From a bacterium (GTDB taxonomy: Bacteria > Bacteroidota > Bacteroidia > B-17B0 > Aurantibacillaceae): DNA of 41,989 nt. The stretch covers positions 163,987 through 205,975 of the forward strand of contig JAQSCW010000023.1 of the NCBI GenBank assembly GCA_029945625.1. Reading direction: 5' to 3'. The position numbers and the translations under genes are program-made. The stretch's first letter is position 1; every line of letters starts with the position of its first letter. The notes below the pieces were generated by a model. That model worked only from the letters and a program-made list of their open reading frames with translations. It ran no database searches and was not told the origin of the DNA. Positions 35,565 through 39,902 of the stretch are shown here, piece by piece.

Positions 35565-37262
35565 TTAAGAATGCTTTGTTCTCAATTTGCTGAATTTTTG
35601 AATAAGTAGCGAGAAACCCATCACCATCAAACACCCTATCACATTTAACCACAAAAACGCTGTTAGGTTTACGATCCATGCGTAGGCGATAAATGCTTGC
35701 GCCAGTAATGCTGCATAAAATACCGAGTTGCCACTTATCCGTTTCATGTAGAAGGCCACCAAAAAGATGCCCAGAATCGTTCCATAAAAAAGCGATCCTA
35801 AAATATTTACGGCTTCAATTAAGTTTCCAAGTTTATTTGCGTAAAATGCAACAATTATACAAAACAAACCCCAGCATACAGTCGCCATTCTCGATGCCTG
35901 AAGGTAGTGATGATCGGTGGCGTCCTTTCTTAAGAGGCGTTTATAGAAGTCCACCACAGTAGTTGAGGCGAGCGAATTGAGGCCGCTTGCTGTGGAACCC
36001 ATAGCAGCTAAAAAAATGATAGCGATTAATAATCCCACAATACCCATAGGCAAATATTGAGTTACAAAACTCAGGAAAATATAATTTGTATCGTTCGTAT
36101 CTGCTTTCGCGTCATTTTTCCTCATAAGGGCCGTCGCTTGCGCCCTTATTGAATCATTCTTTTTAGCTGCAGCTTGCAGCTTGATACGACTTGTGGCAAT
36201 CCTATTTTCATCATGTGCATGAATGGCCGTTACTAGTTTGTATACATCTTTTTGTTTTTCACCGTAAAGCACGTCGTATCGTTTTTCAAGTGCGCGAAAT
36301 TCTTCCCCATGCGGGCTGTTTTTGATCTTCGTTAGTTCTAACTTATTGAAAAAGATAGGTGCTCGGTGAAACTGGTAGAAACTGAATACCAAAACGCCTA
36401 TCAGCAAGATGAAAAACTGCATGGGGATTTTCACCAGGCCGTTCATTACTAAGCCCAGTCGGCTCTGACTAACAGAACTACCTGTGAGATAGCGACCCAC
36501 TTGCGACTGATCGGTTCCGAAATAGGAAAGTTGTAGAAAAAACCCGCCAATGATCCCCGACCAGATCGTGTATCGGCTGCTTAAATCGAAGGAAGTGTCT
36601 ATGGCATTTATTTTATTCATTTTTCCTGCGATGTGGAGGGCGTCAATAATTCCAATATCGGTGGGCAACAAATGTACCACGAGGTACGCGGCAAGAAACA
36701 ATCCTCCAAAGATCACAGTCATTTGAAATACCTGCGTGTAAGAAACCGCTTTTGTTCCTCCGTAAACGGTATAGCCAATTACAAGAGCTCCAGTGAGGAA
36801 GATCGTATAACGAATGTCGACATTAAGTATGGTGGACAAAATAATGGCAGGGGCATAAATGGTTATTCCGGTTGACAAGCCACGTTGAAGCAGGAACAGG
36901 AAAGCTGTGAGACTTCTGGTTTTGTTATCAAAACGTTTTTCGAGGTATTCGTAGGCTGTGTACACATTGAGTTTACGAAACATAGGAATGAAGGTGATAC
37001 AAAGCACTACCATGGCAAGCGGTAAACCAAAGTAGAATTGTACAAAGCGAAGTCCATCGCTGTAACCTTGCCCCGGTGCCGATAAAAAAGTGATGGCGCT
37101 AGCCTGAGTAGCCATTACCGAGAGTCCTACGTGGTACCAGGGAAGTTTCCTGTCTGCCAATAAATACCCTGAAATAGTCTTGGTGCCTCTACTTTTCCAA
37201 ATGCCATAGCCGGCAATGAATAGAAGAGTTGCGCACAATACGATCCAGTCAATTTGGCTCAT
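35565..37262 (-). CDS. Sodium:solute symporter (SSS family)
   Basis: 565 residues with about 13 membrane helices in the SSS/LeuT-like layout. The core signatures are visible: LSVMATQASAITFLSAPGQGY, GGTKAVSYTQVFQMTVIFGG, IGGFFLQLSYFGTDQSQVGRYLTG and LAAMGSTASGLNSLASTTVVDFYKR with the Na+-site Ser/Thr run. Between two helices (about 290-385) there is a ~95-residue charged insertion, common in Bacteroidota members. The substrate is unknown; such genes often serve sialic acid, sugars or amino acids. The start codon overlaps the stop of a 40-residue single-TM gene (ATGA), and a large PIG-L-type gene is upstream, so the symporter may take up a product of that enzyme. No terminator is seen after it. 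Confidence 0.9.
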   Translation of the reverse strand: MSQIDWIVLCATLLFIAGYGIWKSRGTKTISGYLLADRKLPWYHVGLSVMATQASAITFLSAPGQGYSDGLRFVQFYFGLPLAMVVLCITFIPMFRKLNVYTAYEYLEKRFDNKTRSLTAFLFLLQRGLSTGITIYAPAIILSTILNVDIRYTIFLTGALVIGYTVYGGTKAVSYTQVFQMTVIFGGLFLAAYLVVHLLPTDIGIIDALHIAGKMNKINAIDTSFDLSSRYTIWSGIIGGFFLQLSYFGTDQSQVGRYLTGSSVSQSRLGLVMNGLVKIPMQFFILLIGVLVFSFYQFHRAPIFFNKLELTKIKNSPHGEEFRALEKRYDVLYGEKQKDVYKLVTAIHAHDENRIATSRIKLQAAAKKNDSIRAQATALMRKNDAKADTNDTNYIFLSFVTQYLPMGIVGLLIAIIFLAAMGSTASGLNSLASTTVVDFYKRLLRKDATDHHYLQASRMATVCWGLFCIIVAFYANKLGNLIEAVNILGSLFYGTILGIFLVAFYMKRISGNSVFYAALLAQAFIAYAWIVNLTAFLWLNVIGCLMVMGFSLLIQKFSKLRTKHS

Positions 37263-37381
37263 TTAAAATACTGAGTGAAAAAATACAATGCTACTATCAC
37301 CACTACCAAAGTGCCGATAATGAAGCCGTAAACTGTTGACCATTTTTTGAGAAACGGAGGCTTCCCTTCCTGTTGCTTCAT
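37259..37381 (-). CDS. 40-residue single-TM microprotein coupled to the symporter
   Basis: An ORF of 40 codons plus stop that starts MKQQEGKPPFLKKW, has one membrane helix (GFIIGTLVVVIVALYFF) and ends QYFK. Its TGA overlaps the symporter ATG (ATGA), a classic translational coupling. It starts 22 nt after the stop of the PIG-L-type gene. A positively charged N-terminus before the helix predicts an N-in orientation. Other SSS transporters have small membrane partners (YhdT/PanF and YjcH/ActP), so an accessory role is plausible; those partners are larger and of a different family, so this would be a separate type. Supported by reading frame, overlap and helix; no homology evidence is available to me. 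Confidence 0.72.
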   Translation of the reverse strand: MKQQEGKPPFLKKWSTVYGFIIGTLVVVIVALYFFTQYFK

Positions 37382-37403
37382 ATTTGCCACAATTTGCTTA
37401 GGT

Positions 37404-39902
37404 TCATTTTTTGTTTTTCTTTAAACTAAGTAGGTTCACAAAAAGGGGATAGGCTCCCTGAACTCCGGCTGGAAGCTCCCGGAAGAAGGCGAGACCGGTG
37501 TACACAAAATTGCCCGAACCATATTTACAGAGAATTAGACTGCCTTCGAGTGATTTTTCGTTTGGATCACTCATAGCAAAAATAGTTTCATAATTTTTAT
37601 CAAGGTCGGTGGCAAAATAAATGCCACGTTCCTGCACCCAATCCTTAAATTCACTTTCAGAGATCTTGTTGGGGTAAAGCAGCAGGGGGTGTTTCTCATT
37701 TTTAAATTGCACCGGTGCATTTTCATTTGTTACCCGTTCTCTTGAAATTGTAAAAGGGTAGGGGCCTATCTTTGCCTGGAGAGGGCCTACACGACTGTTG
37801 GTGTTGTATTGCACGATAAGATTACCACCTCGCTTTACGTAATTCATAAGTAGTGCATGGTACACTTGCAAATGCTCGTTGGTATTATAAGCTCTTACGC
37901 CGGTAACAATAGCACTATATCTCGAAAGATCTTCGTGTTTGATCTGCTCGTCGCTGAGTACAGTCACCCCATATCCTATTTGTTTCAGACAATTAGCTAC
38001 TTCGTCGCCTGCACCCGGTATATAGGCGATGTGTGTATTGCCTTTTTTAAGATCGAGTTTCAATAATTTGGCCTCCGCCTCTTTCAAAACAAACTGAGAG
38101 GGTAGGTGGTCGTACTCAATGCGTTCGATGCTTTTGTTGTAACTTAACTGATCAATGATCAAACTTGCCTGTAGCACACCTGTTACCGTGCTTTTTTGGG
38201 GTGTAAGGGTGGCGGTCATTATAAATTCATCTCCTTTTGCCGGAAGATCAAATTCATTGTCTTCAAATTGGAGTTTCCAACCTTTGGGAACACTCATCTC
38301 CAGTGTTCCTTTCACCATAGATGTATTGGCACGAACGGTGCAGGAAATTTCTTTTGGGTTTAGATCAGCAAAAACAAAAAGTTTTTCACTTATATTGATG
38401 GTGGCGGGAGGCAAGATCTCGAAGGGACGGTACAATTCACCCTTAACAGGATCGGTATATTTGTATACCAAGGGCCGTTGTACTCGCAAAGGCAGATCTA
38501 AAATGGTGACCTCAAAAGTCACGTAAAGTGCAGGTTCGTTCTCTGGACGGCCACGGGCAGTCATCTCTGCAACTGTATAACGTCCTGCAACATGTTTCTG
38601 GCTTAACCAATAGGGGGCTGAGTAATTAATTGTGGTGGGCAATTGCCGTTTGCGTTTGAAGGAGTATAGTTCGTTTCCTTTCATATCCATACTAAACAGA
38701 GTGTCCTCTTCACCGTTAAAAGAAAATCCTCTCAGCTTCACAGATCCCGAATTCCGATTCACTGCTTGCACCGAATAGGTAATTGTTTGCCCCGGAACTG
38801 AGGAGTATTCGCTACTTAGTGCCTCAAGCCACAAACCCGAGAACGACACTAACAAGGATTCGACTTGTTTGAGTTTTAGTTCCTTCCATTGGGCATCTAC
38901 GTTGGTGGTAGGCGCTAATGTGTTAATCTGCTTGTAAATGCCCACAAGGGCAGGGATACTTTTTTGCGGATCATCAGCCTGAAAAGAAGCGATGCAGGAA
39001 GTGATTGCTTGGCGAATCACATCACCACCCTTCAGTTTGTCCCACTGTGTGGAAATGGATTCAAAAAGATCAGACGTCACCGAATCTCCTTTCAGCAACT
39101 TAAAATACTCCACCATACTACCTCTTTGTCGAGCCGAACCAAAGCCCTGACTTTTATGCATGGATCGACTTTCGGAAGCGATCTCCCCATAACTTTTTCC
39201 AAGGAGAGGATTAAAAGCACCCACATCAATTTTTAACTGATCGGGGGATGTAGTATTGGTTGTTCCAAAATTAAACGTATTCCAAAACAGGCGTTTGCTT
39301 TGCCACACATCTGTGAATTTAAGTTGTTCGGGAAAACGATTGGGGTCTGCGGCAGCATCAAATGCTTCGAGTGCCAGTATGGCCGAGGCCGTGTGATGTC
39401 CGTGCCCTCCTTCACCGGTAGTAGGAAAGCGGCAAATGATCACATCCGGTTTAAATTTTCTGATCGTTAAAACTGCGTCTGCCAGAATACTGTCTTTGTT
39501 CCAGATCTCGAATGTTTCTTCAGGGTTCTTCGAATAACCAAAGTCGTTGGCTCTCGTAAAAAACTGTTCTGCGCCGTCTTTTCTCCTTGCCGCAAGTAGT
39601 TCCTGTGTACGAATTAAGCCCAGTAATTCCCCTTGTTCTTTTCCAATCAAATTTTGGCCGCCGTCTCCTCGTGTAATCGATAAATAACCGGTTCTGTAAT
39701 TTTTTTCATTGGCCAGGTAAGCTAGTAGTCTAGTATTTTCATCGTCGGGATGAGCAGCAATGTACAAAACACTGCCAAGGGTATTTAGTTTTTTTAAAGA
39801 TAACAGAAGTTCTGACGAGCAGGGGGACGACCCGTTTACTTGAGGGAACAATTGTTGAACTAGTAGCAGAAGTAAATTCAAGATCAAAAAGTGCTTTTTC
39901 AT
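37404..39902 (-). CDS. Large PIG-L/LmbE-type deacetylase fused to NEW3- and ThuA-like parts
   Basis: 832 residues. Signal peptide (about 1-20, FPQ), then a PIG-L/LmbE domain (about 40-270) with AHPDDE at residues 50-55 and the second metal-binding motif GEGGHGHHTAS; these Zn-dependent enzymes remove N-acetyl groups from GlcNAc-type sugars. The middle (about 500-600) has SVPKGWKLQFEDNEFDLPA, like a NEW3 beta-sandwich linked with glycan enzymes. The C-terminal ~200 residues (YGVTVLSDEQIKHEDLSRYS, IVTGVRAYNTNE, NYVKRGGNLIVQYNTN) look like a ThuA/GATase-like alpha-beta domain without an obvious catalytic Cys. First gene of an operon with a microprotein and SSS symporter: a likely sugar-deacetylating and uptake unit. 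The start is the ATG next to the signal peptide. Confidence 0.85.
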   Translation of the reverse strand: MKKHFLILNLLLLLVQQLFPQVNGSSPCSSELLLSLKKLNTLGSVLYIAAHPDDENTRLLAYLANEKNYRTGYLSITRGDGGQNLIGKEQGELLGLIRTQELLAARRKDGAEQFFTRANDFGYSKNPEETFEIWNKDSILADAVLTIRKFKPDVIICRFPTTGEGGHGHHTASAILALEAFDAAADPNRFPEQLKFTDVWQSKRLFWNTFNFGTTNTTSPDQLKIDVGAFNPLLGKSYGEIASESRSMHKSQGFGSARQRGSMVEYFKLLKGDSVTSDLFESISTQWDKLKGGDVIRQAITSCIASFQADDPQKSIPALVGIYKQINTLAPTTNVDAQWKELKLKQVESLLVSFSGLWLEALSSEYSSVPGQTITYSVQAVNRNSGSVKLRGFSFNGEEDTLFSMDMKGNELYSFKRKRQLPTTINYSAPYWLSQKHVAGRYTVAEMTARGRPENEPALYVTFEVTILDLPLRVQRPLVYKYTDPVKGELYRPFEILPPATINISEKLFVFADLNPKEISCTVRANTSMVKGTLEMSVPKGWKLQFEDNEFDLPAKGDEFIMTATLTPQKSTVTGVLQASLIIDQLSYNKSIERIEYDHLPSQFVLKEAEAKLLKLDLKKGNTHIAYIPGAGDEVANCLKQIGYGVTVLSDEQIKHEDLSRYSAIVTGVRAYNTNEHLQVYHALLMNYVKRGGNLIVQYNTNSRVGPLQAKIGPYPFTISRERVTNENAPVQFKNEKHPLLLYPNKISESEFKDWVQERGIYFATDLDKNYETIFAMSDPNEKSLEGSLILCKYGSGNFVYTGLAFFRELPAGVQGAYPLFVNLLSLKKNKK

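Follow-up and report, generated by a model that had tools for sequence, protein, structure and literature searches.

A conserved 40-residue single-helix microprotein encoded with one clade of SSS sodium symporters in Bacteroidota, and its probable role as an accessory subunit

On the reverse strand of the window, by which we mean the whole stretch of 41,989 nucleotides analysed here, a gene for a PIG-L-type deacetylase is followed closely by a 40-codon open reading frame (ORF) and then by the gene for a sodium:solute symporter of the SSS family. The features concerned are, in the direction of reading:

37404 to 39902, reverse strand: upstream gene for a PIG-L-type deacetylase of 832 residues (PF02585), a frequent but inconstant neighbour
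37259 to 37381, reverse strand: microprotein gene, 40 residues from its ATG, with one predicted transmembrane (TM) helix and a Lys-rich N-terminus, predicted N-in/C-out
37259 to 37262, reverse strand: ATGA overlap of the microprotein's stop with the symporter's start, read from the sequence
35565 to 37262, reverse strand: gene for an SSS (SLC5-type) sodium:solute symporter of 565 residues, with 13 predicted TM helices (TM0 to TM12) and no C-terminal TM13 (PF00474 and TIGR00813, AF2 model, structural matches)
36603 to 36611, reverse strand: I218-A220 of the symporter, located in its TM5-TM6 loop, a candidate contact with F35/T36 of the microprotein (coevolution, moderate)

The microprotein, translated from 37381 to 37259 on the reverse strand, reads MKQQEGKPPFLKKWSTVYGFIIGTLVVVIVALYFFTQYFK. 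Its TGA (37261 to 37259) overlaps the ATG of the symporter (37262 to 37260), and the stop of the PIG-L gene ends at 37404, which leaves 22 nt to the ATG of the microprotein; an alternative start, a GTG at 37390, would lengthen the product to 43 residues. The original prediction, which was made from the DNA alone, had placed the ORF, the ATGA overlap and the 22-nt distance from the PIG-L gene exactly so, and all of these coordinates are borne out by the sequence. It had also described a protein with a single TM segment, Lys-rich and then hydrophobic, and there is indeed one hydrophobic stretch, predicted to span the membrane (19-residue Kyte-Doolittle maximum of 2.5, from residue 17), behind lysines at positions 2, 7, 12 and 13. 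Across the 214 distinct microprotein-symporter pairs that we retained out of 289, the N-terminal flank of the microprotein carries a mean of 3.1 Lys/Arg. The N side is the more positive in net charge in 52% of these members and the two sides are equal in 18%; since this excess is weak, the charge bias makes the N-in orientation likely but not certain.

The symporter belongs to the SSS family by sequence and by fold. It matches PF00474 and TIGR00813 (234 bits against a cut-off of 184), and its AF2 structure prediction (57 sequences, pLDDT 83, pTM 0.81) has its nearest solved folds in SMCT1, NIS and SiaT (Z 38-39), with Foldseek agreeing on the fold. The predicted helices were read as 13 TM helices, the last of which (residues 538-564) was taken as TM12. 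Because the alignments of the model stop at SGLT2 549-552 and at vSGLT 505, before the last helix of either protein, the symporter, on this model, lacks TM13, the fourteenth helix at the C-terminus that characterises the SGLT/vSGLT subtype, and by this feature it does not belong to that subtype. The model also contains a helical insertion at about residues 301-390 (window 36093-36362), which lies between TM7 and TM8 and falls between two stretches matching Pfam SSF; the topology of SSS carriers would place it in the periplasm. As regards the substrate, the PIG-L neighbour together with the SMCT1-like fold leads us to guess at acetate or an amino sugar. In one of the relatives (L093, 4001-5848), about 60 extra residues seem, as judged by eye, to be inserted close to the C-terminal helices of the symporter.

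A search with the single microprotein sequence in 87 genomes of the family gave a match in 54 of them at E ≤1 and in 38 at E ≤2e-4. A sample that is independent of the microprotein is provided by 80 loci fetched by symporter similarity alone, of which 78 keep the symporter N-terminus and 77 have at least 150 nt of upstream sequence. In 73 of these 77 the microprotein was found by an iterated profile, the four without it being L092, L098, L104 and L107. Among the bearers are Sediminibacterium, Hydrotalea, Foetidibacter, Pollutibacter, Pedobacter and one Saprospiraceae MAG. The arrangement of the two genes is also largely kept: 129 of the 214 distinct pairs have the -4 overlap and 204 have a spacing within -8 to +16 nt, with a gap of 21-88 nt in the other 10. 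The tryptophan that is W14 in the window occurs in 206 of the 214 microproteins and the tyrosine that is Y18 in 213, the remaining 8 and 1, respectively, being alignment gaps.

The mode of divergence was followed in 82 non-overlapping pairs of related microproteins. The pooled dN was 0.25 and the pooled dS 1.35, the differences were distributed as 677, 449 and 1093 over the three codon positions, and pN/pS, the comparison of synonymous with nonsynonymous change for which the original prediction had called, was 0.34 in frame as against 1.00 and 1.34 when the two alternative frames were read. Conservation along the microprotein peaks at a 100-degree helical period (permutation p 0.0002), with a conserved face made up of W14, Y18 and positions 21, 25, 29, 32, 36 and 39. 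By these comparative measures selection acts on the microprotein at the protein level. The presence of the ORF at 73 of the 77 symporter-selected loci, together with substitutions that keep its frame, argues against its being there by chance, and the 40-codon ORF is, on this evidence, the real protein-coding gene that it had been predicted to be, conserved in relatives and with substitutions that respect its frame; neither of the outcomes that the original prediction had named as refuting it, the absence of a conserved ORF at this place in relatives or a frame-blind pattern of substitution, was found.

The association with the symporter was examined at two phylogenetic depths. The order sample consists of 70 genomes, all of one family and with a completeness of at least 85%. 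Microprotein profile matches occurred in 34 of them, including G027, which was set aside because its match is partial, covering profile positions 19-39 and falling within a frame of 208 residues. The symporter, at an identity of at least 56%, was likewise present in 34, including G037, which was set aside with a symporter that is a 240-residue fragment and whose genome gave no microprotein in a whole-genome profile search. After the removal of these two, the 33 genomes with a close symporter are the same 33 that have the ORF; in G020 they are on separate contigs, with the microprotein at a contig end, and the symporter of G017 contains an internal stop. SSS genes other than this symporter that were found in the order genomes (E 1e-20) are 23-27% identical to it. 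The window's own genome has a second SSS gene, which no microprotein profile match precedes, and 30 other SSS loci had no upstream match better than E 0.69, the wrong frame having been scanned in at least two of them (L347 and L353). In one SSS paralogue (L320, G213:C1) the C-terminal helix starts with W-x3-Y, like the microprotein.

In the phylum sample of 394 Bacteroidota genomes, profile matches at E 0.01 were found in at least 98, and the symporter at E ≤1e-60 in 144. When the short ORF was sought before SSS genes of other Bacteroidota, as had originally been proposed, the iterated profile located it directly upstream in 128 of the 144 symporter genomes (a hand tally, in which G376 is weak at E 0.016), and the 29 top phylum matches retrieved besides the window all lie before an SSS gene. 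An accessory subunit would be expected to be encoded with its partner and to co-occur with it, and the microprotein does both. The pairing with an SSS symporter thus extends well beyond the window for which it was first proposed, being exact in the order genomes once two are set aside (33 and the same 33) and predominant in the phylum (128 of 144). The genomic distribution indicates that the microprotein is linked to one clade of SSS symporters, with which it has been kept across much of the Bacteroidota.

The 16 symporter genomes of the phylum sample that have no profile match directly upstream are of two kinds. Seven have a divergent TM-like ORF in its place: in family f39 (G253, G293, G301, G344, G364 and G475) this ORF is of similar size and ends 6 nt or less from the symporter, and in G214 it has a W-x3-Y and ends about 50 nt before the symporter, both judged by eye. 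The other nine (G112, G124, G140, G186, G199, G222, G230, G248 and G361) have no such ORF there. A profile search through the whole genomes of those nine and of G214, G113 and G037 found a convincing copy only in G361 and G113. The copy in G361 shares a contig with the symporter but stands about 108 kb away and has no SSS gene as its neighbour, a displacement that suggests that the microprotein may act in trans; this copy (L156/L328, G361:C78:15016-15123) is downstream of a 172-residue ORF, after which comes a glycine-/serine-rich protein. In G113 (L160, G113:C19, 927-1325) the microprotein is followed by a short ORF whose similarity to the symporter is confined to the C-terminal end of the latter, and no full symporter was found in this genome at E 1e-60; the remnant is a case of decay or an assembly fault. 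Since 16 of the 144 phylum genomes have no profile match directly upstream and 4 of the 77 symporter-selected loci lack the microprotein, it is, on these counts, not strictly required by the symporter.

Several other small ORFs deserve mention. TM-like ORFs that are beyond the reach of the profile precede symporter relatives at L262, L264, L307, L308, L309 and L310, and also at L257; that of L264, for example, reads MTELDQKSSESYIRTLIRVFAAQGIIMLILWLLHAIYN. These are likely to be distant members of the family. At L088, L094, L096, L104 and L106 a second, similar small ORF of about 50 residues, glycine-rich and with two hydrophobic stretches, occurs before the position of the microprotein, and at L104, from which the microprotein is missing, this glycine-rich ORF lies 24 nt before the symporter. 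Natural fusions of microprotein and symporter were considered for the profile matches in long frames at L145-L149, L151 and L155; none of these frames matches the symporter, and the profile matches seem to be due to chance.

A possible site of contact was sought in the 214 pairs (effective number 126) by a mean-field coupling analysis, which covered 17329 inter-protein column pairs. The top two couplings were those of microprotein column 29 with symporter position 218 (9.35) and of column 30 with position 220 (8.36). Columns 29 and 30 correspond to F35 and T36 of the window, at the predicted periplasmic end of the microprotein, and symporter positions 218 and 220 are in the TM5-TM6 loop, which in SSS carriers is extracellular. 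The two couplings join positions that are adjacent on both proteins, consistent with a C-out helix. In eight within-cluster shuffles the best values ranged from 6.14 to 8.94, and the second-best reached up to 6.76. A tree-based count found ten co-changes for 29-218 where 2.63 were expected; this pair, which has four changes into I-M, is third of 19210, 30-220 is at rank 15, and 26-336 and 19-179 stand above 29-218. In a test by stratified mutual information, z was 12.0 for 29-218 (second place) and 6.0 for 30-220 (rank 69) when clusters were formed at 58%, and 1.6 (rank 1969) and 2.7 (rank 564) when they were formed at 70%; 26-253 stands above 29-218 in this test, in which several of the high values stem from nearly invariant microprotein columns. 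Couplings 15-203 and 17-85, which are within the shuffle range, were dropped, as were 26-336 and 19-179, which are outside the 40 strongest couplings and have a stratified z of only 3.5 and 2.0; this selection was made post hoc. Because the ranks drop in some tests and the shuffles reach 8.94 against the real 9.35, coevolution points with moderate strength, and not in every test, to a position of F35/T36 near the TM5-TM6 loop of the symporter.

We propose that the microprotein serves the neighbouring SSS symporter as a single-helix accessory subunit which aids the folding or stability of that carrier, and we would give this reading a probability of about 0.72. Such a subunit would cross the inner membrane once, with its N-terminus in the cytosol, and the face formed by W14, Y18, 21, 25, 29, 32, T36 and F39 would pack against the symporter, perhaps with the periplasmic end at F35/T36 close to the TM5-TM6 loop. 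The overlap of start and stop would let both proteins be made from one message by coupled translation and in matched amounts, and the microprotein would help the 13-helix carrier to insert, fold or stay stable. This role in folding or stability is proposed by analogy with MAP17 and SGLT2. Against the proposal, SMCT1, NIS and SiaT, the nearest solved folds, have, to our knowledge, no known need for such a small partner.

A structural or folding subunit fits the sequence data at least as well as does the regulatory one that the original prediction had suggested. Small proteins are known to tune transporters, AcrZ with AcrB being an example (PMC7267776), and the microprotein could by the same token inhibit or gate the symporter under some condition rather than be part of its structure. 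The overlap of the two genes, however, suggests a constant stoichiometry rather than separate control, and we consider such a regulator unlikely.

A little less probable again is a split transporter, in which the microprotein would be a detached last helix that fills the place of TM13 in the 14-helix SGLT-type carriers. The symporter model aligns to about SGLT2 552 and to vSGLT 505, before the last helix; TM13 of several 14-helix Bacteroidota paralogues starts with W-x3-D or WYxNY, which may be compared with the W-x3-Y of the microprotein; and when the microprotein profile was run forward over five paralogue groups, its top match was TM13 in two of them. In those two groups, however, the reversed control profile did at least as well, and in the remaining three the top match was TM2 or some other helix, so that no homology of the microprotein with TM13 is established. 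In addition, SMCT1, NIS and SiaT work without a TM13. A split transporter, if true, would give the MAP17/TM13 arrangement of human SGLT2 a bacterial counterpart that is widespread.

It is very improbable, in our view, that the short ORF is a cis-acting leader that mainly brings ribosomes to the symporter start and encodes a peptide of little function. The -4 overlap (129 of 214 pairs) and the spacing within -8 to +16 nt (204 of 214) are what a leader would show, but purifying selection at the protein level with a conserved helix face, the near-invariant Trp and Tyr, the persistence of the microprotein across gaps of 21-88 nt in 10 of the 214 pairs and the G361 copy 108 kb from its symporter all speak against it. 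There is hardly any chance that the microprotein functionally belongs to the PIG-L enzyme, as an anchor or subunit, with the symporter not its partner: it sits between both genes in the window, and of the loci having at least 1200 nt upstream, 48 of 73 and 16 of 29 have PIG-L as the gene directly before, but it is kept in 23 of the 25 and in all 13 loci without PIG-L directly upstream, and because it stays there the constant partner is, on locus content, the symporter and not PIG-L.

The proposed accessory subunit does not fall into a described family in the searches made here. For the window microprotein no model of Pfam or NCBIfam reached its cut-off, and 55 members gave no convincing family in NCBIfam or among the first 25 of 56 families listed for Pfam, the best E values being 0.0011 in Pfam, among the families listed, and 0.0026 in NCBIfam. 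Pfam (among the families listed), NCBIfam, PHROGs and solved-structure searches yielded only weak, scattered matches. With regard to the original suggestion that annotation pipelines may miss the gene in all relatives, an annotated plasmid collection contained no relative of the symporter at E 1e-40. In the literature, the microprotein is in no title or abstract opening among the matches listed, and the terms symporter, sodium, Bacteroid- and Flavobacter- are absent from the main text of the paper on the Pro-SMP finder (PMC10903887). Within the Pfam, NCBIfam, PHROGs, structure and literature searches, a partner of SSS carriers that is widespread, has a single helix and lacks a family model appears to be new. 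Small transporter subunits are easily missed, and a carrier expressed without one may seem inactive. The present family occurs in much of the Bacteroidota, is characteristic of one SSS clade and keeps a Trp-x3-Tyr that is nearly invariant, and it thereby offers a direct test of whether a carrier needs its 40-residue partner.

Single-helix subunits of membrane complexes are a known kind. KdpF, CydX and AcrZ are, like the microprotein, short single-helix partners of such complexes, but their partners are not SSS carriers, and the 55 members gave no match to their families in NCBIfam or among the first 25 of 56 Pfam families listed. MetS, the small single-helix subunit of the NSS carrier MetP of Corynebacterium, is encoded with a LeuT-fold sodium symporter; it shares the single helix with the microprotein, but its partner is an NSS and not an SSS protein. 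The gene position of the microprotein is shared by YjcH (DUF485) with ActP, YhdT (DUF997) with PanF, DUF4212 and DUF3311, small membrane proteins that are encoded directly before SSS genes, but these are proteins of about 70-100 residues with two helices instead of one, as is usual among the partners known for bacterial SSS carriers. None of the models for YjcH, YhdT, DUF4212, DUF3311 or MetS was listed for the window protein up to E 10, and none appeared for the 55 members in NCBIfam or among the first 25 of 56 Pfam families listed.

MAP17 (PDZK1IP1), the partner of human SGLT2, is like the microprotein in having a single TM helix and an SSS/SLC5 partner. It differs in being eukaryotic, longer and separately encoded, and in docking on TM13 of SGLT2, a helix that the present symporter lacks; no sequence relation between the two was seen among the first 25 of 56 Pfam families listed or in the solved-structure search. 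According to PMC10803289 and PMC10203128, MAP17 is a single-helix partner of SGLT2 that binds TM13, and what it affects is argued to be not the transport cycle but surface expression, localisation, folding or thermal stability; one of the two papers cites older work in which MAP17 is an activator that leaves SGLT2 expression unchanged. How one helix aids a sodium symporter is the question raised by MAP17 and SGLT2, and for this question the microprotein and its symporter could serve as a simple bacterial model.
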